Source: a virus
DNA: 20,448 nucleotides
Strand: one strand, 5' to 3'
IMG/VR virus record: IMGVR_UViG_3300009285_014251
Span: 1 to 20,448 of that record
Positions 5,672 to 19,775 of the stretch are shown piece after piece. Under the pieces are notes generated by a model. It saw nothing but the letters and a program-made list of their open reading frames with translations, was not told the origin of the DNA and did no database searches. The stretch's first letter is position 1; each line of letters begins with the position of its first letter. Both the position numbers and the translations under genes were made by a program.

Positions 5672-6181
5672 CTAGACCTCGACCACCTGGGCATACCGGG
5701 GCAGGGCGTGCCCGCTGAGGGGATGCCGGCGGCGCGCCCCCAGCCACTCGCCGCGGCGGCAAGGCGATTCCTCGGGAATCATCAGGTCGGCCATGGGCAC
5801 GTTAATCGCCCCGATCTGGGCGTCGATCTCCTTGACGATCTGCCTCCGGTGCTTCCTGGCCACGTCCTGGATGTGGTTGGAGAAGTCCCGGTCGATGCTC
5901 TCCTCGCGGCGCTGGTTGGCCTGCTCCATCTGGCGCAGGGCGTGCATCCCGATCCGCCAGGTATCAGCCTCCGCCAGGGCATTGAGGGTGCGCTGGTCGA
6001 GAGGCCGGAAGGAGCCGTCGTCCTGGCGCACTGTCATCACCACGAAGGTGCGGTCATACAGCCTCGACGAGTCCGAGATCGTGCGCAGGATCTGCCACCG
6101 CTCCTTCTCCCGGTTCCAGCGCACTGACAGGCGCCGATCGTACCTCTTCAACTCCTTCAGGAAACACCGGTCTGGCGTCAC
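5672..6181 (-). CDS. Conserved-looking phage protein of unknown function (169 aa), starts inside the upstream gene
   Basis: The protein begins FLKELKRYDRRLSVRWN..KERWQILRTI, a beta/turn pattern I associate with small structural-region proteins of many phages but cannot name. Residues 40-75 hold further strands and a helix. About 80-130 is a long charged helix (LRQMEQANQRREESIDRDFSNH), probably a coiled coil. About 135-169 is basic. The start is a GTG at 6181 with GGGAGG eight bases upstream. Both start and Shine-Dalgarno lie inside the methyltransferase-glycosyltransferase gene, giving a 128-base out-of-frame overlap. It precedes the adaptor gene directly. A head-completion or internal role is possible but not shown. 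Confidence 0.6.
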   Translation of the reverse strand: MTPDRCFLKELKRYDRRLSVRWNREKERWQILRTISDSSRLYDRTFVVMTVRQDDGSFRPLDQRTLNALAEADTWRIGMHALRQMEQANQRREESIDRDFSNHIQDVARKHRRQIVKEIDAQIGAINVPMADLMIPEESPCRRGEWLGARRRHPLSGHALPRYAQVVEV

Positions 6182-7841
6182 CTTCCATCCTCCCGAGCAT
6201 CGTCAGGTACCGCGTCCGCGCGTGTTCGTAGTCGAAGAACCTGACCTTCTCCTGGGCCTGCTTCGCCACCGCCGCGTACCAGTCGGGATCCGCCAGCAGG
6301 CGCTTCACTCGAGCCCGTGCGCCCAGCACATCCCCCGGCATCACGGTCAGCTCTGGAAAGCACTCCCGCTGCGCCCAGACGTTGGGGTAGCCGACGCAGG
6401 GCACCCCCAGGGCCGCCAGCTCGATCTGGCTTCGACCGCAGACGTGGTGGGTGTAGCAGTCCACCACCAAGACCGACTTGGCCATCAAGGCCACGGCCAC
6501 CTCGCCCCCCAGGTAGCCCTCGTGGATGTAGTCGTACATCAGCGCCGGGTAGTCGATGGCGCTCCCGGTGGGGTTGCCGCAGGGCGTCAGGCGCCCGATC
6601 ACTCGGGTCTTCAGGCCGCAACCCCGGAGCATCCAGTAGGGCAGGTAGTCCTGGTTGTCGCGGTGGAGCATGACCAGGGCGTCGATCCGCTCGTGCCGCG
6701 GCTTCGCGGTGGCGCCGATGGCCTCCACGTCGGCCGGGTGCGGGATCACGTACACCGGCCGCCCAACGAACTCCGCCAGCATCCGGGCGGCGTGCGGCTC
6801 TACCGACATGATGTAGTCGGCGCACCGCAGCTGATCCAGCAGCAACTCCGGGTAGGGCGGGTACATGTACCAGAACTCCGGGGCGTAGTCGAGGTTGACC
6901 ACCAGCTTGGTGTCCGACCGCGGCCCGAGTTGCTTCCGCACCCGCCGGGGCGCGTCGAAGTTGGTGCCTGAGAGCTGCACATGCACCACGTCGAACTGTT
7001 TGAGGTCCGGGATCGAGGCCACCGGCGCGGCGAACCCCCGGAACAGGCGTTGCCAGTTGAAGACCCCGGTCTTGATCCGCCCGTCACCGGAGATGTCGTT
7101 AGCCTGCTGCGTCTCCGTGGTGGTCCCGGAGATCATCACGAACCGCAGGTCCACCTCGCGCTTCTCCATTGAGATCACCCAGTTGGTCGTGCCCTCCTGG
7201 GTATGGATCTGGCTGACGGCCACGGGGTAGTGCCGGCTGCCCTGCTCCGATACCAACGCTACCAGGGCCTCGACGCGGGCCGCGTCGAACTCGTGCAGAT
7301 GCTCCAGGTTGAAGTCATTGACCCGCCTCGGCATGGTTACAAACAGCAGCCCCCCATCGGCCACCAGGCCCCACAGGATCCTCATGGCCGCCTCGGGGTC
7401 CACCAGGTGCTCCAGAAGCTCCATGCAGGTCACGGTATCGTACTGCTTGCCCTGAGAGGGCAGCTCGTCGAGGTCCGCCAGGAAGAAGTGGTCGGCGCGG
7501 GTGGCAGTGGATTTACGGGCGAAGCGCACGGCCTCCATGGAGCAGTCGCAGCCCCAGGCGTCCTTGCCGTGCGCGATGAGCGCGCCGGTCAGGAGCCCGG
7601 GGCCGCAGCCCACGTCGAGGAACGAGCCGGAGCGACGCCGGATCTTCTCCCAGATCACTCCCTGGCGTTCGTTCAGGGTGATCTCGCCGGTCTTGCCCCA
7701 CTTATTCCACTGCGGACAACGCTGCAGGGCCGCGCGGAAGAAATGGTCGTAGGCGGCCCGCCACTGCCTGGCATCCGCCGTCGGGGCCGTCTGTCTCCAG
7801 GCGCTCAGGTCTGGACCGTTCCGGCCGTTCCTCTTGCTCAT
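6054..7841 (-). CDS. Fused SAM-dependent methyltransferase and GT-B glycosyltransferase (595 aa)
   Basis: Residues about 50-225 are a class I methyltransferase. Motif I is FLDVGCGPGLLTG (about 74-86), the acidic post-I region is WGCDCS, motif II is YDTVTCMELLEHL, and motif III is GGLLFVTMP. Residues about 232-570 resemble a GT4-like glycosyltransferase: a Rossmann half with FDVVHVQLSG and VVNLDYAPEFW, a linker YVIPHPADVEAIG, and a nucleotide-binding half with SQIELAALGVPCVGYPNVWA. The ATG at 7841 has GGAGG five bases upstream; a GTG one codon earlier is less well spaced. The last 42 codons overlap the next gene out of frame. The enzyme probably adds and methylates a sugar, but whether the target is a virion protein, DNA or host glycan is unknown. 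It sits within the capsid-tail genes, which favours virion modification or simple insertion as a moron. Confidence 0.75.
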   Translation of the reverse strand: MSKRNGRNGPDLSAWRQTAPTADARQWRAAYDHFFRAALQRCPQWNKWGKTGEITLNERQGVIWEKIRRRSGSFLDVGCGPGLLTGALIAHGKDAWGCDCSMEAVRFARKSTATRADHFFLADLDELPSQGKQYDTVTCMELLEHLVDPEAAMRILWGLVADGGLLFVTMPRRVNDFNLEHLHEFDAARVEALVALVSEQGSRHYPVAVSQIHTQEGTTNWVISMEKREVDLRFVMISGTTTETQQANDISGDGRIKTGVFNWQRLFRGFAAPVASIPDLKQFDVVHVQLSGTNFDAPRRVRKQLGPRSDTKLVVNLDYAPEFWYMYPPYPELLLDQLRCADYIMSVEPHAARMLAEFVGRPVYVIPHPADVEAIGATAKPRHERIDALVMLHRDNQDYLPYWMLRGCGLKTRVIGRLTPCGNPTGSAIDYPALMYDYIHEGYLGGEVAVALMAKSVLVVDCYTHHVCGRSQIELAALGVPCVGYPNVWAQRECFPELTVMPGDVLGARARVKRLLADPDWYAAVAKQAQEKVRFFDYEHARTRYLTMLGRMEGDARPVFPEGVEEVRSAPVSALEPGEGAVADPAHDLGLVEAV

Positions 7842-7881
7842 CACCGCCTCCAGGGTTTCGGGTAGTCCGAAGGTACGGAGC

Positions 7882-13482: not shown

Positions 13483-14175
13483 TCAAGGCCCGGCCCGGGC
13501 GCGCGCCAGCAAGGCCAGCGCCTGGGCTACCAGGTCGGGCTCCTTGACGGAGCCGACGACCACGCCGTCCTCGGCGGGCAGGAGGGCGGCCGCGAGGTCT
13601 TCGAGGGCGGTGGCTACCAGATCACCCCAGGCGTCCCATGGGTAGAGGTACTGGCTGCCCTGGCGGACGGGTTGCTTGAGGTGCCGGCTGACGGTGACGG
13701 TGAACGGCGCGGCCTGCAGGGCGGCGAGCAGCAGGGCGGTCAGGTCGAAGGGGCCGTCGGCGGTAGCGGGATGCGGATCCCCGGGATTCCGCAACCGGTC
13801 GAGGTGGTCGAACGTCCCGGGGGCCGTGCGCGCCACCTGGAGTTCCTCGATCCCCGGGATTCCGCTTCCCCATGACGACGGCACCCGCAGGGTCAGGGTA
13901 GCGTCGTCCCGCCGCACGAAGTCCAGGGGCATCTGTTCCTCGGCCACGCGGCGCCAGATGGCCAACTCCTGCTCATTGGGAGGGTCGGCCGCGGCGGCGG
14001 AACTCACCCCCGCCTGGACGATCTCGCGCCAGCCGTCGCTGCCGGGGGGCGGGTTCTTCTGCTCCCAGCCGGGTCCGCCGACCAGGGCGGGCAGGACGTG
14101 CTCCTCGCCTTTGTCGTCGACGCCCACTACATCCTGCGCCTCGCGGCGCGGGGCGCCACCGGAGTACTTGGCCAT
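13483..14175 (-). CDS. Unknown late-operon protein between terminase and portal (230 aa)
   Basis: The ATG at 14175 overlaps the previous TGA (TGATG) and has GAGGAG six bases upstream, so I reject the longer upstream frame. The protein begins MAKYSGGAPRREAQDVVGVD, has an acidic/Pro-rich linker, a helical box NEQELAIWRRVAEEQMPLDFVRRDD (about 85-110, given as landmarks only), beta segments with IPGIEELQVARTAPGTF, and an Ala/Leu-rich helical C-terminus. A 17-base direct repeat occurs inside it (13776-13792 and 13849-13865) in two different frames. No family is recognised. Its place between terminase and portal suggests a packaging or head-assembly accessory. Confidence 0.6.
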   Translation of the reverse strand: MAKYSGGAPRREAQDVVGVDDKGEEHVLPALVGGPGWEQKNPPPGSDGWREIVQAGVSSAAAADPPNEQELAIWRRVAEEQMPLDFVRRDDATLTLRVPSSWGSGIPGIEELQVARTAPGTFDHLDRLRNPGDPHPATADGPFDLTALLLAALQAAPFTVTVSRHLKQPVRQGSQYLYPWDAWGDLVATALEDLAAALLPAEDGVVVGSVKEPDLVAQALALLARARAGP

Positions 14176-14465
14176 CAGGGGCTCCTCGGGACCTTGGAAG
14201 CGAAAGCGCCTTGGCCCGGCATGGCGCCCTCCACGTCTTCGACCCCGGAATGAGGGCTGCGCACCAGCGGCTTGAACTGGCCCGTTTCCTGATCCACCCA
14301 TCCCAGGCTTCCGTCTGGCTCGCTCATGACCGCGGCCATCTGCCCGGACAGGGCCATGAGGCGGTCGAGGGTGCGGTTATGGGCGCGGCGTTCCACGGCC
14401 AGCATCCAGGAAGCCCACACGGCGACGAACAGGAACAGGCCCACCATGATCCAGACGCTCACCAT
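14175..14465 (-). CDS. Single-span membrane protein in the terminase-portal interval (96 aa)
   Basis: Residues 2-23 form one strong transmembrane segment (VSVWIMVGLFLFVAVWASWM). A basic amphipathic helix follows (ERRAHNRTLDRLMALSG, about 25-41) and then a polar tail. The C-terminal peptide GQGAFASKVPRSP is encoded by a copy of the dispersed repeat described separately, so the tail may have been acquired by repeat insertion. The ATG at 14465 overlaps the end of the terminase nuclease gene by seven bases, and the stop overlaps the next ATG. Topology would be N-out or N-in with a cytoplasmic tail; function is unknown. The tight overlaps support it as a real gene. Confidence 0.6.
   Translation of the reverse strand: MVSVWIMVGLFLFVAVWASWMLAVERRAHNRTLDRLMALSGQMAAVMSEPDGSLGWVDQETGQFKPLVRSPHSGVEDVEGAMPGQGAFASKVPRSP
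14192..14214 (-). repeat. Dispersed repeat copy A (in-frame, encodes GAFASK)
   Basis: The minus strand reads GGCGCTTTCGCTTCCAAGG, differing from the family core by one base at the start. It forms the C-terminal codons Gly-Ala-Phe-Ala-Ser-Lys of the membrane protein. Confidence 0.75.
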
Positions 14466-15199
14466 ACCATCGCCCCCAGTTCCCAGTCGGGCCGTTCGCG
14501 CTCGAGGCGCTCAAGGGCCTTCTCGGAAAGTTTCTGCTCCCGGGTCTTCGGCGTCTCCTCGGTCAAGAGGTCCAGTCCCAGGACGGACGCCTCGACGACC
14601 TGACCGGCGACCATGGGGGCCAGGTCGTCCTTGCCCTTGGATTTCATCCAGACGGCCCACATCTGGCAGGCGCCGAGGTAGGCGAACACGGCGTCGTCGT
14701 GGCCGCCGGGAATGGCTTCGTACTTGCCGCGGGCGTTCTGGCTGAAGATTTCCAGCTGGTCGAACAGGGTCTTCGACATCGGCCGGATCGACCCGTCCCG
14801 GGTCCAGGACAGGCCGTGCCGCACCATCCAGTTCCGGGTAAGGGTGTTGGTGTTCCAGCCTGGCTTCCGGGTATCCACGGGCCCGGCCTGCTGGCCGAGT
14901 TTCTGCTCGAAGTGCAGGTTGGGGTAGCGCAGTTCGACGAGCTTGTTGTTGGGGGTCTGGTCCTTGTTGTTCTCGAAGCAGCCGTAGGCCCAGTTGTAGT
15001 ACTCGCCCATGTCGTAGGCCAGTTCGCCCAGTTCGTTGCCGGCCAGCTTCCCCACGTACTCCGCCACCTGTAGCCCGTCTTCGCAGCACAGCCAGCAGAG
15101 GGCGGAGTCATCGCCGTGCTCCAGCCCTTCGGCGGGGTCGCCGAAGAAGACGTAGTGCTTCTCTGGCTGGGGCTCGAAGGCCCGGCGCACGCCTTCCAT
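14459..15199 (-). CDS. terL (C-terminal part): Terminase large subunit, nuclease half (separate gene, 246 aa)
   Basis: The product is the RNase H-like endonuclease domain that cuts concatemeric DNA during packaging. Asp21 in HYVFFGDPAEGLEHGDDSA and the following Glu/Asp residues (about 24-31) fit the first catalytic cluster, and GHDDAVFA (about 167-174) supplies the C-terminal acidic pair. The end is a charged helical tail (about 218-240). The ATG at 15199 overlaps the stop of the ATPase gene as TGATG and has only a distant GAGGCGG upstream, so it probably relies on translational coupling. In related phages the two domains are one chain of about 500-600 residues; here 351 + 246 would fit that length with little lost. 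A sequencing frameshift is the main alternative. Confidence 0.8.
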   Translation of the reverse strand: MEGVRRAFEPQPEKHYVFFGDPAEGLEHGDDSALCWLCCEDGLQVAEYVGKLAGNELGELAYDMGEYYNWAYGCFENNKDQTPNNKLVELRYPNLHFEQKLGQQAGPVDTRKPGWNTNTLTRNWMVRHGLSWTRDGSIRPMSKTLFDQLEIFSQNARGKYEAIPGGHDDAVFAYLGACQMWAVWMKSKGKDDLAPMVAGQVVEASVLGLDLLTEETPKTREQKLSEKALERLERERPDWELGAMVW

Positions 15200-16254
15200 C
15201 AGGCCGCCGCCTCGAAGCGCAGCTTGCCGTCGACGCCGCGCAGGGGCCAGCCAGTGACGATCTGCGAATCCGGCGGCGCGCCGGCTCGCAGGGCGCGGAT
15301 CAGGTCCCGGTCGAAGGCCAGCTTCATGCCCAGCGGCGTGAACATCCCGTAGGCGCGGGCGTCCATCTCGTCGGCGTCCCACTGGGCCACGAGGGCTTGC
15401 TTGGCGGTCTCCGGCAGGTGGGGGTTGTGGAAGAGGGACCAGGAGAAGAAGTCGATCCCCTTCTGTTCGCGGGGCACGTACAGGTCCTGAAAGATCCAGG
15501 GGATGCCGTGGATCCGGTCGAAGACGGGGGTGCAGGTACCGATGATCTGGCCTTCTCGGTCAATGGTGCGGGCGTAGAGTTCGGAGTAGACGTCCTTGGG
15601 AGGCACCTCGTCAAAGTGGCCCTTGTCGATCTTCGTGCCCTGGAAGGCGATGCGGCCGGCGGAGGAGTACTTGAAGTCGATCCGCGAGCCGTTGGTGAAG
15701 CCGATGTAGTTGTTGCGGAAGCCGCCCTTGGGGGAGTAGTGGATGTCATCGGCCACCAGTTCCCAGCCATAGGACAGTTGGTTGGGTCCCAGCACCTGCT
15801 CGGCGAAGGTGCGTTGGACGATCTCGATGCTGGTGTCTTCGGTGTCGGAAACGACCCAGATGTCCACAGGCGGCGTGAATCTGGCGCTCGGCCCCTTGGA
15901 GATCACGTCGATGCCGAGGCAGTCGGCGGCGTCTTCCATCAGTGCCATCTCGGTTTTGCCGGCGCGGTTGCCGGCGGTAACCCAGCGTTGTCGGGCGCGA
16001 GAGGCGCAGAAGCCGATCTGGCAGGGGTTGTCGTCGGAGGTATAGCCGAACGGCTGCCAGCGAACGAGCGGGAACTGGGCGACCTTGAGGACCTGCTCAA
16101 AGCCTTGGGGATTGGCTTCGGCCAAGAGGTCGCCCAGGGCGGGGTCTGCCTCCAGGCCGCGGGCCAGGGCGGCAATGTCGGCGAACGACGCTTTCGCTTC
16201 CAAGTTGGAAGTAACCGGGTCCGAGGCTGACGCTGCCGCTTCCAAGTCAGCCAT
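15199..16254 (-). CDS. terL (N-terminal part): Terminase large subunit, ATPase half (351 aa)
   Basis: This is the packaging motor ATPase. Walker A is AGNRAGKT (about 94-101), the Walker B-like box is GHFDEVP with Asp215/Glu216, and a coupling-type motif IGTCTP lies at about 238-243. It ends at residue 351 just after the ATPase-nuclease linker (GWPLRGVDGKLRFEAAA), where the nuclease gene begins. Residues 1-40 are an Ala/Glu-rich extension containing two copies of the dispersed repeat (peptides LEAAAS and LEAKAS). This extension lies outside the conserved domain and was probably created or lengthened by the repeat. The ATG at 16254 overlaps the end of the MerR-like gene by eight bases. The enzymatic assignment is strong. 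Confidence 0.88.
   Translation of the reverse strand: MADLEAAASASDPVTSNLEAKASFADIAALARGLEADPALGDLLAEANPQGFEQVLKVAQFPLVRWQPFGYTSDDNPCQIGFCASRARQRWVTAGNRAGKTEMALMEDAADCLGIDVISKGPSARFTPPVDIWVVSDTEDTSIEIVQRTFAEQVLGPNQLSYGWELVADDIHYSPKGGFRNNYIGFTNGSRIDFKYSSAGRIAFQGTKIDKGHFDEVPPKDVYSELYARTIDREGQIIGTCTPVFDRIHGIPWIFQDLYVPREQKGIDFFSWSLFHNPHLPETAKQALVAQWDADEMDARAYGMFTPLGMKLAFDRDLIRALRAGAPPDSQIVTGWPLRGVDGKLRFEAAA
16187..16204 (+). repeat. Dispersed repeat copy B (encodes LEAKAS in the ATPase gene)
   Basis: GACGCTTTCGCTTCCAAG lies in the N-terminal extension of the ATPase gene and is read on the minus strand as Leu-Glu-Ala-Lys-Ala-Ser. It is followed by TTGGAAG, giving a small palindrome around CTTCCAAGTTGGAAG. 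Confidence 0.8.
16229..16246 (+). repeat. Dispersed repeat copy C (encodes LEAAAS in the ATPase gene)
   Basis: GACGCTGCCGCTTCCAAG differs from the core by two bases. It begins three codons into the ATPase gene and is read on the minus strand as Leu-Glu-Ala-Ala-Ala-Ser. Confidence 0.75.
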
Positions 16255-16420
16255 GGCTCATAAGGCGAGTGGCGCTCCGCAGGTCGGCGGGGGTGAAGAT
16301 GCGTCGATTCGCCGAGTCGCGCCGGTCGGGGATCAGGCCGCGCCGTACGTAGTTGCGCAGTGTCTCCGTGGAGCAGCCGGCGCGCTTGGCGGCGGCGCCG
16401 ATGTGAAGAATGGGTCTCAT
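16247..16420 (-). CDS. MerR-type helix-turn-helix protein, candidate small terminase subunit or regulator (57 aa)
   Basis: Nearly the whole protein is a MerR-like winged helix: HIGAAAKRAGCSTETLRNY (about 6-24), the wing turn VRRGLIPDRRDSANRR, and FTPADL entering the next helix. The dimerisation helix of true MerR regulators is missing. It is the first gene of the minus-strand operon and overlaps the terminase start by eight bases. Small terminases sit there, and lambda gpNu1 uses a MerR-related winged helix to bind DNA, so a pac/cos-recognition subunit is plausible. A transcription factor acting on the adjacent 16471-16498 palindrome is the alternative. The start is the ATG at 16420; its ribosome site (GGAAG) lies inside dispersed repeat copy D. 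Confidence 0.7.
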   Translation of the reverse strand: MRPILHIGAAAKRAGCSTETLRNYVRRGLIPDRRDSANRRIFTPADLRSATRLMSHG

Positions 16421-16440
16421 GACGCTTCCGCTTCCAAGGC
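16421..16440 (+). repeat. Dispersed repeat copy D (5' untranslated, supplies a ribosome site)
   Basis: GACGCTTCCGCTTCCAAGGC is identical over 20 bases to copy E at 18010. It lies immediately before the ATG of the MerR-like gene. Read on the minus strand it provides two GGAAG sequences 4 and 10 bases before the start codon. Confidence 0.8.
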
Positions 16441-16452
16441 CTCCGGCCTCAC

Positions 16453-16481
16453 TTGACTTGGCCCTCCGTTCTTTGTATATT
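16453..16481 (+). promoter_or_regulatory. Sigma70-type promoter for the plus-strand gene block
   Basis: TTGACT (16453-16458), a 17-base spacer and TATATT (16476-16481), placing transcription start near 16488, about 20 bases before the first ATG. The -10 box lies in the left arm of the palindrome at 16471-16498. This is the best promoter match in the window. Confidence 0.7.
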
Positions 16482-16498
16482 GATAGCAATATACAAAG
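16471..16498. promoter_or_regulatory. 28-bp perfect palindromic operator over divergent promoters
   Basis: The arms CTTTGTATATTG (16471-16482) and CAATATACAAAG (16487-16498) are perfectly complementary around a four-base ATAG centre. The palindrome covers the -10 boxes of both divergent promoters, the classic arrangement for a dimeric repressor that shuts both directions. It is AT-rich within a GC-rich genome. The binding protein is unknown; the two flanking genes encode the nearest candidates. Confidence 0.7.
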
Positions 16499-16515
16499 GA
16501 ACCCCGGCATGTCAA
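16488..16515 (-). promoter_or_regulatory. Sigma70-type promoter for the minus-strand late operon
   Basis: On the minus strand there is TTGACA (16510-16515), a 16-base spacer and TATATT (16488-16493). The predicted start is near 16481, leaving a leader of about 60 bases before the MerR-like gene. The -35 box overlaps the start codon of the 72-aa plus-strand gene, so the two promoters overlap face to face. Confidence 0.6.
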
Positions 16516-16727
16516 GCAAGGACCTCGGCGTCAAGCCGCACATCGACCGCCTTCGGCGCTTCATCAAGGCGGAGCGCCAGATGCGGGAGCAGGTCTTCCA
16601 ACCGACCAGCATGGACCGCCGCAAGCTGCGGGCGCAGAAGCTGGCCGACTGTGACGAGGCGTTGCTGGCGCTGCAGTTCATCGAGGAGGTCTTCATTCCT
16701 CGCGTCAGGCAGGAGGAGTTGTTTTGA
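16509..16727 (+). CDS. Small helical protein of unknown function, first gene of the plus-strand block (72 aa)
   Basis: The protein is predicted almost entirely helical. A basic amphipathic helix (HIDRLRRFIKAERQMREQVF, about 11-30) is followed by a loop and a second long helix (about 37-66) ending FIPRVRQEELF. The many Arg/Lys residues would suit a DNA-binding or dimeric helical protein. The ATG at 16509 has AAGGA about ten bases upstream. Its stop overlaps the glycosyltransferase start as TTGA, so the two are translationally coupled. Because it is the first product of the divergent control region, it is a candidate ligand for the palindrome, but there is no helix-turn-helix signature that I can name. 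Confidence 0.6.
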   Translation: MSSKDLGVKPHIDRLRRFIKAERQMREQVFQPTSMDRRKLRAQKLADCDEALLALQFIEEVFIPRVRQEELF

Positions 16728-17683
16728 TCTCGTCGGTGCCGACGGTGATGATCTTCGACCGGATCGGGTCCTTCGTGCAGGTCTTCGTGGACCGGGCCAA
16801 GGTCAGGGGTTGGAAGGTCCTCTTGGCGAAGGGCGAGGTCAATCCCGAGCTGATCGAGCAGTGCGACGTGATCTACTGCAACTGGTGCGATCATCTGGCG
16901 GTGTCGCTGGCGCAGAAGAAGTGGCCGGGGAAGCTGGTGGTAATGGTGCGCAGCTACGAGGCCTACGCCGGCTTCTTGGGGGCGATGCATTGGGAGCACG
17001 TGGACCGGCTGGTGTATGTTTCGCCGCACATCCGCGAGTACTGCCAGTTGACCTATCCGATTCCGGGCTCGATCCCGGTGTCCTACGTGCCGGATTGCGT
17101 CGACGTGCAGCGGTTCCCGTTGAAGGCGGACCTCTCGCCTGGCAAGGTGGTCGGCTTCGTCGGTCGGCTCGGGGCGCCGAAGCACGCCGAGTGGCTGGTG
17201 GCGGCGGCGTACGACTTCCCGGATTACCGGTTCCGCTTCAAGGGGCCGTTCGAGGATCGCCGGCTGGCGCCGTTCTTCGCGTACCATCAGGCGAAGGCGG
17301 GCAACCTGGAGGTGGAGGGGCCATCGGGGGAGCCGTGGTTCGGCGGGCAGGGGGTGAACGCCTTCTTGGAGGGGTGCCATTACATCGCCTCGCCGTCGTT
17401 CCACGAGGGGACGCACATGGCGCTCTTGGAGGGCATGGCGAAGGGTCTGTTCCCCCTGTGCCAGGACCGGCCCGGGGCGGTGGTGGCGCCGGACTACCCG
17501 GTGTACCGGTCGATGCGCGAGTTCGGGGCCTTGCTGGAGGCGAGCAGGCCCAGTCCGGCGCACCGGGTCTGGGTGGAGGAGCACCGGCACGTGACGCGGC
17601 AGTGGGCGGCGGTGGACGCCTTGTTCGAGGCGGTGGCGCCGTCGCCGATCATCTTACCCCCTCGGGGGGTGAAACTCAACTAG
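16724..17683 (+). CDS. GT4-type glycosyltransferase (319 aa)
   Basis: This is a GT-B enzyme that would transfer a sugar from an NDP-sugar. The N-terminal half (about 1-135) has a Rossmann pattern with DVIYCNWCDHLA, LVVMVRSYEAY and RLVYVSPHIREY. The linker YVPDCVDVQRFPL (about 121-133) is the typical GT4 hinge, VVGFVGRLGAPKHAEW (about 142-157) opens the C-terminal half, and EGTHMALLEGMAKG (about 228-241) is the E-x7-E motif contacting the donor (Glu228, Glu236). It is a little short for the family. The start is TTG at 16724, with AGGAGG seven bases upstream and a TTGA overlap; an ATG at 16748 is less well placed. The acceptor is unknown: host surface glycan, phage DNA or virion protein. Confidence 0.78.
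   Translation: MISSVPTVMIFDRIGSFVQVFVDRAKVRGWKVLLAKGEVNPELIEQCDVIYCNWCDHLAVSLAQKKWPGKLVVMVRSYEAYAGFLGAMHWEHVDRLVYVSPHIREYCQLTYPIPGSIPVSYVPDCVDVQRFPLKADLSPGKVVGFVGRLGAPKHAEWLVAAAYDFPDYRFRFKGPFEDRRLAPFFAYHQAKAGNLEVEGPSGEPWFGGQGVNAFLEGCHYIASPSFHEGTHMALLEGMAKGLFPLCQDRPGAVVAPDYPVYRSMREFGALLEASRPSPAHRVWVEEHRHVTRQWAAVDALFEAVAPSPIILPPRGVKLN
17656..17670 (+). promoter_or_regulatory. Short GC stem-loop near the end of the glycosyltransferase gene
   Basis: ACCCCC (17656-17661) pairs with GGGGGT (17665-17670) around a three-base loop, inside the last codons of the glycosyltransferase and 22 bases before the next start. It is not followed by T residues, so an intra-operon mRNA stability or partial termination element is more likely than a full terminator. 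Confidence 0.25.
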
Positions 17684-17692
17684 GAGGGAGAC

Positions 17693-17884
17693 GTGAAGCA
17701 GATCCTGTCGGAGAGTGAGATCATCGAGGCGATCCGGGCGCACTACGAGTTGGACCCGAAGCAGTCGGTGACGCTGTCCTCGAGCCGGAAGCGGGGGGCC
17801 CCGGCGGCGGAGTACAGCGCCTTGGTGGAAGACCTCGACCTGTTCCCGCCGGAGCCGTCCGTGTCGAAGCCGAAAGGACCGTAG
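17693..17884 (+). CDS. Small acidic-tailed protein of unknown function (63 aa)
   Basis: An N-terminal helix (KQILSESEIIEAIRAHYEL, residues 2-20) is followed by a basic stretch TLSSSRKRGAP and a C-terminal acidic/Pro-rich tail (ALVEDLDLFPPEPS). The GTG start at 17693 has an excellent AGGAGGGAG just upstream. The stop overlaps the next start as TAGTG, placing it firmly in the operon. There are no cysteines or catalytic motifs, and no family is recognised. Confidence 0.55.
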   Translation: MKQILSESEIIEAIRAHYELDPKQSVTLSSSRKRGAPAAEYSALVEDLDLFPPEPSVSKPKGP

Positions 17885-18213
17885 TGGCGACCATGAAGGA
17901 GTTGGACGCCGAGCAGGCGAAGGCGGCGGAGAAAGTGGCGATCAACCTCCTGCACCGGGCGCCGCTGGGCATGGTCATCACCTCGACGCCGCGGGGGGTG
18001 CAGGCGACAGACGCTTCCGCTTCCAAGGCGGAGGGCCAGCTGCTTGTGCTTCCAAGGCCGGCCTTCCAGACGGCGCACAACTGGTGGGGGAAGGGGTATC
18101 GCTTCGCCGATCCCAATCATCGCCGGCTGGTGGCCGCGGCGTTCCGGGCGATCCTGGAGCAGATCGAGGCGGAGTGGGGGCCGATCCCGGACGACCTGGG
18201 GCACTGGTCGTGA
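17884..18213 (+). CDS. Unknown protein carrying an in-frame dispersed repeat (109 aa)
   Basis: The start is a GTG at 17884 overlapping the previous stop, with AAGGA five bases upstream; an ATG three codons later is an alternative. An N-terminal helix (ELDAEQAKAAEKVAINLLHR) is followed by MVITSTPRGVQ. The peptide TDASASKAEGQ (about 42-52) is encoded by a perfect repeat copy, with a second partial copy just after. The C-terminal part is helical and looks more conserved (AHNWWGKGYRFADPNHRRLVA split as AHNWW and FRAILEQIEAEWG). The repeat appears to split an otherwise continuous protein, as expected for an inserted element tolerated in a loop. No family is recognised. Confidence 0.55.
   Translation: MATMKELDAEQAKAAEKVAINLLHRAPLGMVITSTPRGVQATDASASKAEGQLLVLPRPAFQTAHNWWGKGYRFADPNHRRLVAAAFRAILEQIEAEWGPIPDDLGHWS
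18010..18029 (+). repeat. Dispersed repeat copy E (in-frame, encodes DASASKA)
   Basis: GACGCTTCCGCTTCCAAGGC is identical to copy D. It is read in the gene's own frame as Asp-Ala-Ser-Ala-Ser-Lys-Ala, in the middle of a 109-residue protein. Confidence 0.8.
18048..18058 (+). repeat. Dispersed repeat partial copy F
   Basis: GCTTCCAAGGC repeats the right half of the core 18 bases after copy E. It is followed by CGGCCTTCC, so the arms AAGGCC and GGCCTT form a small palindrome. Confidence 0.5.
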
Positions 18214-18392
18214 GCAAGGCCCGCTGGCCAGGGAGGGGCAAGCCGGCTCGGATGGCGCCCCCCCAGGCGTCCGGCCGGCGGTGTTGGCGGTGCGGGAAGA
18301 CGGCGGCGCCGTCCTGGAAGCGGATCGACCGGAAAGTAGTGGCCTGCTGCCGGTACTGCGGGGGGCGCCTTGACCCACTTGACACCAAGTAG
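18210..18392 (+). CDS. Small zinc-ribbon protein (60 aa)
   Basis: The start is a GTG at 18210 overlapping the previous TGA by three bases (GTGA). Residues 1-22 are basic and Pro-rich. The fold is a single treble-clef or zinc ribbon with CWRC (25-28) and CCRYC (46-50), 18 residues apart and each followed by a Gly as in rubredoxin-type knuckles. Such one-domain ribbons bind nucleic acid or protein partners, including RNA polymerase in some phages. The specific partner is unknown. The four Cys and tight overlap make the gene call reasonable. Confidence 0.6.
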   Translation: MSKARWPGRGKPARMAPPQASGRRCWRCGKTAAPSWKRIDRKVVACCRYCGGRLDPLDTK

Positions 18393-18398
18393 TATCTT
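18370..18398 (+). promoter_or_regulatory. Promoter placing transcription start at or next to the ATG of the next gene
   Basis: TTGACC (18370-18375), a 17-base spacer and TATCTT (18393-18398). The ATG at 18405 lies seven bases after the -10, and no Shine-Dalgarno precedes it, as in leaderless transcripts. Confidence 0.5.
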
Positions 18399-18404
18399 CA
18401 TCTC

Positions 18405-18599
18405 ATGGTTGAGACCATCGTCTTCCACGACCCCCTACCACCGCACGACCCCCTGGACGTGCGGCCGGGGAAGTTCTGCGTCCGGTGCCCGGCGGAGTGG
18501 GAGCCGGACGACCAGGTGTGCTGGGCCTGCGGCGCGGAGAAAAGCATCGGGGACCGTGAAAAAGTTCTTGACAGGGAAGGTCTGATCTCGGTATCTTGA
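18405..18599 (+). CDS. Small zinc-ribbon protein, probably leaderless (64 aa)
   Basis: The N-terminus is VETIVFHDPLPPHDPLDVRPG. Two CxxC knuckles follow, CVRC (about 25-28) and CWAC (about 39-42), each ending in a short turn, and then an acidic tail GDREKVLDREGLISVS. The spacing gives a compact ribbon similar in size to the preceding protein, so the two may be paralogues or partners. No ribosome-binding site is present before the ATG, while a promoter ends seven bases upstream. Its last codons also contain the promoter of the downstream leader. No enzymatic function is indicated. Confidence 0.55.
   Translation: MVETIVFHDPLPPHDPLDVRPGKFCVRCPAEWEPDDQVCWACGAEKSIGDREKVLDREGLISVS
18568..18597 (+). 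promoter_or_regulatory. Promoter for the structured leader and DUF6496-like gene
   Basis: A consensus TTGACA (18568-18573), an 18-base spacer and TATCTT (18592-18597), the same -10 hexamer as the 18393 promoter. The predicted start is near 18604, giving a leader of about 245 bases before the ATG at 18851. Confidence 0.55.
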
Positions 18600-18603
18600 G
18601 GCC

Positions 18604-18850
18604 CAAGGGGGAGTCGCCGCCTCTGAGGGTATCGGTTCACCCTGGGTAGCCGCGCTTGGCAGAGTGGCGTCCCACACGACCCTCAGAGGATGGGCTTCGG
18701 CCCACGGGCACCCTCAGTCCCCGGCGACCCTCTGAGGGTTTCGTGTTTGCCCCCAAAGGCCCGGGGGCTACGCCGGGGCCGGCTCCGTAGGAGTCCGGTG
18801 GAAACGCCACACCTCGGGAGAGGGACGGATGACCGCAAGGAGCCGGCCCC
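18604..18850 (+). ncRNA. Structured 5' leader RNA, candidate riboswitch-like regulator of the DUF6496-like gene
   Basis: The module at 18620-18739 has CCTCTGAGGGT at 18620-18630 and again at 18729-18739, and the exact complement ACCCTCAGAGG at 18679-18689. The middle strand can therefore pair with either outer copy, giving mutually exclusive helices. A TGGGC-TTCG-GCCCA tetraloop hairpin (18691-18704) lies between, with a partial fourth copy at 18710-18720. A GCCCCC/GGGGGC hairpin follows (18749-18768). The final module has GGGGCCGGCTCC (18775-18786) pairing perfectly with GGAGCCGGCCCC (18839-18850). The latter contains the Shine-Dalgarno GGAG and ends at the base before the ATG. Inside are GTGG/CCAC and CCTC-GGGA-GAGG hairpins, and a competing CC-GCAA-GG hairpin overlapping the site. 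No known riboswitch motif was recognised. Confidence 0.55.
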
Positions 18851-19111
18851 ATGAGCACCGCGACCTGTGACCCCATCCTGAAAGAGGGGTACATGCCCGG
18901 AAGCGAACGCGTCTCTCGCCGCAAGCCGAAGACCAGGACTGGCGCCAAGTCCTGTAAACGCCGCAAGATGCGCAAGGTGATGCGGGAGTTCAAGGAAGGG
19001 CAGCTCCACTCCGGCTCCCACAACGGCCCCGTGGTCAAGACCCTGGGCCAAGCCATCGCCATTGGCCTGTCAGAGTCCGGCCAGTCGCGCGCCAAGAAGA
19101 AAAAGCGCTGA
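18851..19111 (+). CDS. DUF6496-like small basic protein (86 aa)
   Basis: Residues about 38-80 match the DUF6496 pattern: KVMREFKEGQLHSGS, a basic loop and QAIAIGLSESGQSRAKKKK. The family is short, very basic and common in phages and bacteria, with no established biochemical role; nucleic-acid binding is often assumed from charge. The N-terminus (SERVSRRKPKTRTGAKSC) is Arg/Lys-rich, and a diverged copy of the dispersed repeat may lie at 18899-18913. I chose the ATG at 18851 because AAGGAG lies eight bases upstream. The ATG at 18893, with AGAGG close by, would shorten it by 14 residues. The stop overlaps the next gene as TGATG. Translation is probably controlled by the leader stem that buries the first site. 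Confidence 0.7.
   Translation: MSTATCDPILKEGYMPGSERVSRRKPKTRTGAKSCKRRKMRKVMREFKEGQLHSGSHNGPVVKTLGQAIAIGLSESGQSRAKKKKR
18899..18913 (-). repeat. Possible diverged dispersed repeat copy J
   Basis: GGAAGCGAACGCGTC differs from the reverse core GGAAGCGAAAGCGTC by one base. It lies near the N-terminus of the DUF6496-like gene in a frame different from the LEAKAS copies, so it may be coincidental. Confidence 0.35.
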
Positions 19112-19320
19112 TGGCCTCCTGGATCGGCAAATACGACCTCGGCCGGGAGTCCCCCACCCTGCGCCCCCAGCGCCGGGAAGGACCGCCCCGCACCCCCTAC
19201 TACTCCGTCCCCCTCTTCAGCGGTCCCGTCTCCCGCGAGTACGTCGAACTCTTCCGCCGCTGCGGCTGGCGGATCCGATACAGCCGGCGCCTGGCCCTGA
19301 ACAGCAAGACCCCGGGATGA
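19111..19320 (+). CDS. Small basic protein of unknown function (69 aa)
   Basis: The start overlaps the previous stop (TGATG) and the end overlaps the next ATG (ATGA). The protein is Arg/Pro/Tyr-rich. A first half with MASWIGKYDLGRESPTLRP is probably disordered, and a second half (YYSVPLFSGPVSREYVELFRR) looks like a strand-helix unit and ends WRIRYSRRLALNSKTPG. There are no cysteine pairs or catalytic motifs. The overlaps on both sides are the main evidence for coding, and no family is recognised. Confidence 0.5.
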   Translation: MASWIGKYDLGRESPTLRPQRREGPPRTPYYSVPLFSGPVSREYVELFRRCGWRIRYSRRLALNSKTPG

Positions 19321-19775
19321 AGACTGACGCCAAGCTCACCTGCCCCAGGAAGTCCTGCCAGCACTACGGCAAGCCGCGCCTGACCCGGGCCGGCCCGCAC
19401 CTCAAGGCGACCTGCGCCCGCTGCGGAGCCTACCTCCGGTTCTTGAAGCAAGCACATGGCCCACATCAGAATAAACCGGCCTACCTGGAAGATCGAAAGC
19501 CCGCCTCCAAGGCCATCCATCGACCCGACCTGGTAGCCGCCTACAATACCCGGTCCGTGCCCAAAACACCGCCGGACCACCTCGAGTGGAAGCCGTCCCG
19601 CTTCCTGCTCAACGAAACCTCGGAACAAGCCCTGCTGTCGCTGTCCATCTGGCATAAGGTGACAGCCCTGCTGCGCTTGGAAGCGAAAGACGCTTTCGCT
19701 TCCAAGGCGTCCGCGCCCTACGCGACCCGCGCGCCTTCACTTCCAAGACGACAGATCCGGCCAGCCGCCGGCTGA
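19317..19775 (+). CDS. Zinc-ribbon protein with repeat-derived C-terminus (152 aa)
   Basis: I start at the ATG at 19317, which overlaps the previous stop (ATGA); the longer upstream frame is rejected. Residues 9-48 form a zinc ribbon: CPRKSC (9-14), then the box GPHLKATCARCGAYLRFL, a pattern I associate with small phage zinc-ribbon proteins. Residues 50-115 are Lys/Pro-rich and poorly defined, followed by a helix (about 100-120). The last 35 residues (RLEAKDAFASKAS...) are encoded by an inverted pair of the dispersed repeat, so the C-terminus may be a late addition. Nucleic-acid binding is plausible. The partner is unknown. Confidence 0.6.
   Translation: MKTDAKLTCPRKSCQHYGKPRLTRAGPHLKATCARCGAYLRFLKQAHGPHQNKPAYLEDRKPASKAIHRPDLVAAYNTRSVPKTPPDHLEWKPSRFLLNETSEQALLSLSIWHKVTALLRLEAKDAFASKASAPYATRAPSLPRRQIRPAAG
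19676..19708. repeat. Dispersed repeat copies G and H, head-to-head perfect hairpin
   Basis: CTTGGAAGCGAAAG (19676-19689) and CTTTCGCTTCCAAG (19693-19706) are perfect 14-bp complements around a three-base centre. The right copy completes the core to 19708. Together they encode Leu-Glu-Ala-Lys-Asp-Ala-Phe-Ala-Ser-Lys-Ala, i.e. both peptide types in one frame. Confidence 0.85.
19733..19747 (+). repeat. Diverged dispersed repeat copy I
   Basis: GCCTTCACTTCCAAG matches the core GCTTTCGCTTCCAAG at 13 of 15 bases, 25 bases after copy H. It is in a different reading frame from the others, so it is less certain. Confidence 0.45.

Follow-up and report, generated by a model that had tools for sequence, protein, structure and literature searches.

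A short dispersed repeat family in an IMG/VR phage record, probably spread by insertion into genes and spacers

The viral record IMGVR_UViG_3300009285_014251 from the IMG/VR virus collection (20,448 bases, 66% G+C; this whole stretch is the window below) carries a family of short repeats built on an asymmetric 18-bp unit, GACGCTTYCGCTTCCAAG, whose flanks are unrelated between copies. Seven strong copies span positions 14193 to 19706, and three weaker copies were also found. On balance, we favor the reading that these short dispersed repeats form a young, lineage-specific family that spread by insertion at the DNA level. The individual copies are as follows.

14193-14210, minus strand: copy A, GGCGCTTTCGCTTCCAAG, encoding GAFASK in the C-terminal tail of a 96-amino-acid (aa) protein; the ATG of the next gene lies about 17 nt on.
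16187-16204, plus strand: copy B, GACGCTTTCGCTTCCAAG, antisense in the terminase ATPase gene and encoding LEAKAS; it falls within a 33-nt gap relative to the related record L002.
16229-16246, plus strand: copy C, GACGCTGCCGCTTCCAAG, antisense in the terminase ATPase gene and encoding LEAAAS; it begins 8 nt into the gene.
16421-16438, plus strand: copy D, GACGCTTCCGCTTCCAAG, intergenic, touching the start codon of a leftward gene for a MerR-type helix-turn-helix (HTH) protein.
18010-18027, plus strand: copy E, GACGCTTCCGCTTCCAAG, encoding DASASK midway in a 109-aa open reading frame (ORF).
18039-18056, plus strand: copy F, weak (matrix score, 16.7), GCTGCTTGTGCTTCCAAG.
18896-18913, minus strand: weak copy (score, 16.6), immediately following the likely start codon of a DUF6496 protein (Pfam).
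19676-19693, minus strand: copy G, the inverted partner of copy H; the joint G/H sequence is CTTGGAAGCGAAAG-ACG-CTTTCGCTTCCAAG.
19689-19706, plus strand: copy H, GACGCTTTCGCTTCCAAG, encoding DAFASK in the C-terminal tail of a small putative zinc-ribbon protein.
19730-19747, plus strand: copy I, weak (score, 15.8), CGCGCCTTCACTTCCAAG.

Scans with a 20-mer, a 12-mer core, and a weight matrix placed these copies where the original prediction, an earlier reading of the window, had located them. The 20-mer, with up to three mismatches allowed, matched at 14191 (minus strand), 16187, 16229, 16421, 18010, and 19689, or six times compared to 0.00 expected in shuffled sequences. The 12-mer core matched 11 times (0.52 expected), adding the inverted copy at 19676 and the weak copies at 18039 and 19730, with two of the 11 being weak strays at 2684 and 3680. 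The most overrepresented 10-mer of the window, CGCTTCCAAG, occurs seven times where a third-order Markov model expects 0.116. The weight matrix was trained on the strong copies and is independent only in separating the weak ones; it scored the former at 23.9 to 29.9, the latter (18039, 18896, and 19730) at 15.8 to 16.7, and everything else at 11.0 or below. Ten matches in the window score at least 15, compared to between 0.06 (Markov model of the left 14 kb) and 0.18 (whole-window model) expected. None of these lies in the left 14.19 kb, which agrees with the claim that the left 14 kb holds no copies, the two strays of the 12-mer core aside. The copies at 16421 and 18010 (D and E) are identical over 20 bases, also as claimed.

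Since both strands carry copies, which fall in several frames and, at one site, between genes, codon bias is unable to produce the family, a point on which the original prediction was right. The idea that the copies are a chance or codon-biased likeness among Ala/Lys/Ser-rich tails can appeal to the low complexity of some of the encoded peptides, but the counts already refute it, and it is scarcely credible given that shuffles contain no such family and that the copies coincide with the largest insertions in the window relative to a related phage. An assembly artifact or adapter also seems unlikely, because the copies carry substitutions, unique flanks, and open frames.

The evidence for insertion comes from two related IMG/VR records, L002 (7.9 kb) and L022 (a 17-kb contig). 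The three phages are about equally distant from one another in all pairs, with 82 to 84% amino acid identity in the portal protein and 77 to 80% in the terminase ATPase. Neither the L002 record nor the L022 contig contains the 10-base core with at most one mismatch, the opening 5 kb of that contig give no weight-matrix match, and k-mer counts reveal no comparable repeat family of the relatives' own. Two genes of the window have orthologues that allow the presence or absence of copies to be compared directly.

15199-16254, minus strand: ATPase part of the terminase large subunit (PHROG 2, E value of 2.4e-12; PF03237), holding copies B and C.
14175-14465, minus strand: 96-aa membrane-like protein, holding copy A; about 71 to 72% identical in L002 and L022, both of which lack the tail.

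The 7.7 kb common to the window and L002 align at 78% identity, and the window has only three insertions of at least 6 nt in this interval: 45 nt at the terminase N terminus (45 to 51 nt), 27 nt where the 96-aa protein ends, and an unrelated one of 12 nt. The two longer insertions coincide with copies A, B, and C, which are all of the copies in the shared interval, and the same two sites are the only window insertions longer than 15 nt relative to L022. At the copy A site, the window-specific insertion measures 27 or 29 nt relative to L002 and L022. At the terminase start, three of four gap costs resolve the alignment with L002 into an 18-nt gap that is exactly copy C and a 33-nt gap made up of copy B plus 15 nt. 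The protein reads MAD-[LEAAAS]-ASD-[PVTSNLEAKAS]-FADIA in the window compared to MAE-TAD-FADIA in L002, a net excess ahead of the common FADIA/FAAIA motif of 17 codons relative to L002 and 15 relative to L022. Synteny with L002 is unbroken on both sides of the testable sites. The test set beforehand, a search for orthologues without the repeat codons, thus found them in both relatives at the terminase N terminus and the 96-aa tail, and at these two sites the orthologues support the claim of a DNA-level family inserted into coding and noncoding sequence.

We consider these alignments strong evidence that sequence was inserted at the terminase N terminus and in the 96-aa tail. Insertion at the copy D site, in the 109-aa gene, and in the zinc-ribbon gene is something we infer; the copy D site is not alignable in L002 or L022, and no orthologues of the 109-aa and zinc-ribbon proteins were found. 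Mobility of the 18-bp unit is suggested by the presence/absence comparison, and gain of copies would be simpler than loss, requiring one gain instead of two parallel losses. Identity among the six most similar copies is 93%, and in their portal and terminase proteins the three phages differ by 16 to 23%; copies that are closer than the phage lineages fit a spread after the lineages split. Selection for a binding site could likewise hold copies alike.

Several points weigh against this reading. The insertion can be tested at two of the five repeat clusters, namely the terminase N terminus and the 96-aa tail. At the former, the lowest gap cost fragments the gap, the two separate gaps are resolved with L002 only and not with L022, and the exact 18-nt placement of copy C depends on a 10-nt homologous spacer in which seven of 10 bases are identical. 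The polarity of gain and loss rests on three roughly equidistant lineages without an outgroup, the record is probably an incomplete genome, and no enzyme that might copy the unit is visible. Random insertion would also not be expected to leave the left 14 kb empty, unless structural genes reject copies.

If the family did spread by insertion, GACGCTTYCGCTTCCAAG would have inserted in both orientations across one third of the sequenced part of the phage, and the surviving copies would occupy the least harmful spots: where genes start or end, in protein tails, in one stretch in the middle of a protein, and at one intergenic position. An intragenic insertion would merely add LEAKAS- or DAFASK-like residues. 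A transposase is unlikely because neither inverted ends nor a target duplication was seen: the unit has no terminal inverted repeats, and inspection of the terminase alignment at the boundaries of copy C, the one site inspected, revealed no target-site duplication. In this respect the family departs from miniature inverted-repeat transposable elements, which are recognized by those two features. Copying may instead have proceeded by template switching linked to replication, which we favor, or by another homology-poor event, with harmful copies subsequently lost. More tentatively, the unit may be an actively spreading, frame-neutral, and stop-free mobile word of 18 bp that reaches genes and spacers alike through transposase-independent copying and possibly lays down binding sites by insertion instead of point mutation. 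We know of no smaller in-frame insertional repeat family.

As the leading alternative, the word may be a binding site (an operator, a stoperator, or a replication or packaging site) for a DNA-binding protein of the phage or its host, with sites gained by insertion and kept by selection near divergent promoters. The word is asymmetric, with a tightly conserved core and a distribution restricted to 14.2 to 19.7 kb, and some copies form pairs spaced 41 to 42 nt apart. Copy C and the weak copy at 18896 sit at gene starts, and copy D lies between the start codon of the MerR-type HTH gene and a pair of divergent promoters.

16453-16515, no single strand: divergent sigma-70-like promoter pair adjoining copy D (11/12 and 10/12 matches).

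Precedents for dispersed phage words exist in the stoperators of cluster A and in the start-associated sequences (SAS) and extended SAS (ESAS) of cluster K (PMC9283540, PMC3203893). Cluster A mycobacteriophage stoperators are likewise short, asymmetric words dispersed along a phage genome, but their orientation tracks transcription and they are located in promoters and short intergenic gaps (PMC9283540), whereas the 18-bp copies lie in both orientations relative to genes and are mostly intragenic. Cluster K SAS precede start codons by 3 to 7 bp, share one orientation, and occur cluster-wide, and one ESAS site in TM4 is wholly missing instead of diverged (PMC3203893). The 18-bp copies share with SAS/ESAS a dispersal within one part of the genome and occasional contact with start codons; they differ in being mainly intragenic, in both orientations, and absent from relatives, with copy D alone directly upstream of a start codon. 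A binding site is a reading we take seriously but judge rather unlikely: orientation is independent of transcription, most copies are intragenic with only one near a promoter, and the relatives retain the MerR-type HTH gene without any site.

The MerR-type HTH protein itself (57 aa; approximately 16247-16418, minus strand) occupies the place expected for the small terminase subunit. Its gene overlaps the terminase start and is kept in both L002 and L022. No repressor was identified among the scanned proteins of the right third, apart from this protein. Sigma-70-like promoter sites number five in the region compared to 0.4 expected; they lie at 16453-16515, 18370-18398, and 18568-18597 and are rare in such G+C-rich sequence.

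A further possibility is that the words are recombination boundaries that mark the exchange of modules between phages. The majority of copies lie at gene junctions, L022 has an extra gene at the HTH/terminase junction, and the relatives carry lysin-like genes, so judged by eye, upstream of the HTH gene. We nevertheless consider this improbable: the testable sites differ from L002 by a small insertion alone, with synteny intact on both sides, and no other scanned phage is known to carry several copies, so no exchange partner is visible. The extra gene in L022 (L022:6151-6600) encodes 149 aa and lies between the HTH and terminase genes, the junction that holds copies B and C in the window. The divergent promoter region of the window (16419-16452) lies upstream of the HTH gene, in the place of genes in L002 (L002:1-130) and L022 (L022:5414-5965) that we take to be lysin-like from their appearance. 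The L022 contig carries repeats of another kind within its first 5 kb (L027:2569-3995), where a tandem array of 15-nt units and exact dispersed repeats of 26 to 28 nt are unrelated to the 18-bp family.

The repeat could also have been acquired from the host as a repetitive extragenic palindromic (REP)-like, bacterial interspersed mosaic element (BIME)-like, or other genomic repeat. Bacteria commonly carry repeats of this kind. However, a scan of 84,980 prokaryote species with the 18-mer returned 18 single matches, about the number expected by chance on a rough estimate, and no contig in that scan had two exact matches. Among 396 actinobacterial genomes, the 16-mer was positive in one, with a single match, and this was the center genome, chosen for having a match. 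With single matches only, and not the many copies per bacterial genome of a REP-like repeat, a host origin is mostly refuted and we regard it as highly improbable. In IMG/VR, the 18-mer was found in one contig and the 16-mer in 106 contigs, with one exact match each among the matches listed, again close to chance by rough estimate. Among the loci with two matrix matches, the two that were inspected (L016 and L089) look coincidental. The search for the core in other phages and candidate hosts that the original prediction proposed thus returned only chance-level single matches, and the family is therefore known from IMGVR_UViG_3300009285_014251 alone.

Rickettsia, Wolbachia, and organelles are known to carry short repeats inserted into protein genes, and the original prediction compared the family to a Rickettsia palindromic element (RPE). 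The parallel holds in part. As in RPEs and the protein-coding palindromes of Wolbachia, the copies are lineage-specific, lie both between genes and, in frame, within protein genes unrelated to one another, and are lacking from orthologues; an in-frame insertion absent from orthologues was found at the terminase N terminus. RPEs measure 105 to 146 bp, carry terminal inverted repeats, and form long stem-loops (PMC2229807). The phage unit, unlike them, is 18 bp (conserved over 18 to 20 bp, with inserted segments of 18 to 51 nt), asymmetric, without inverted ends, and unstructured. The term palindromic applies to the 19676/19689 pair only (G/H; 14-bp arms and a 3-nt loop); single copies are asymmetric. 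No copy region folds significantly better than shuffles, with z-scores of -1.69 for the G/H pair, the best, and -0.48, 1.04, -0.09, and 0.57 for the others.

The claim of one frame per orientation stands for the strong intragenic copies (GAFASK, DASASK, and DAFASK in one; LEAKAS, LEAAAS, and LEAKD in the other) and fails for the weak copies, which fall in other frames. Once the linked pairs B/C and G/H are allowed for, the pattern is about a 1-in-27 coincidence, and the shared frame hints only weakly at selection on the protein. Inspection of the sequence shows that the unit spans six codons and contains no stop in any frame, which means that frame-neutral insertion calls for no special explanation.

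Organelle short dispersed repeats and GC clusters offer another comparison, consisting of units of tens of bases in spacers and permissive coding sites without transposase hallmarks. The phage family resembles them in this pattern of insertion; they differ in residing in other genomes and in being usually palindromic. A small literature search found no documented phage case of short repeats inserting into protein genes. With empty sites in two relatives and one alignment that resolves a unit-sized insertion, the window offers a small, tractable case in which to study how units this short can multiply when no transposase moves them, and whether insertion can give rise to dispersed words in phages, stoperators and SAS among them.

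No nucleotide match to isolates was found in the phage collection searched, where the terminase and capsid proteins are only about 24 to 30% identical to those of actinobacterial and other phages. The minus strand carries the split terminase, portal, and capsid genes, and small plus-strand genes lie to the right of 16.4 kb. The large terminase appears to be encoded by two neighboring genes (14459-16254), one for the ATPase part and one for a second part that matches a terminase PHROG, likewise in L002 and L022. Inside the structural gene block, a 596-aa ORF (6054-7844) presumably encodes a methyltransferase-glycosyltransferase fusion, judging from the impression given by its sequence.

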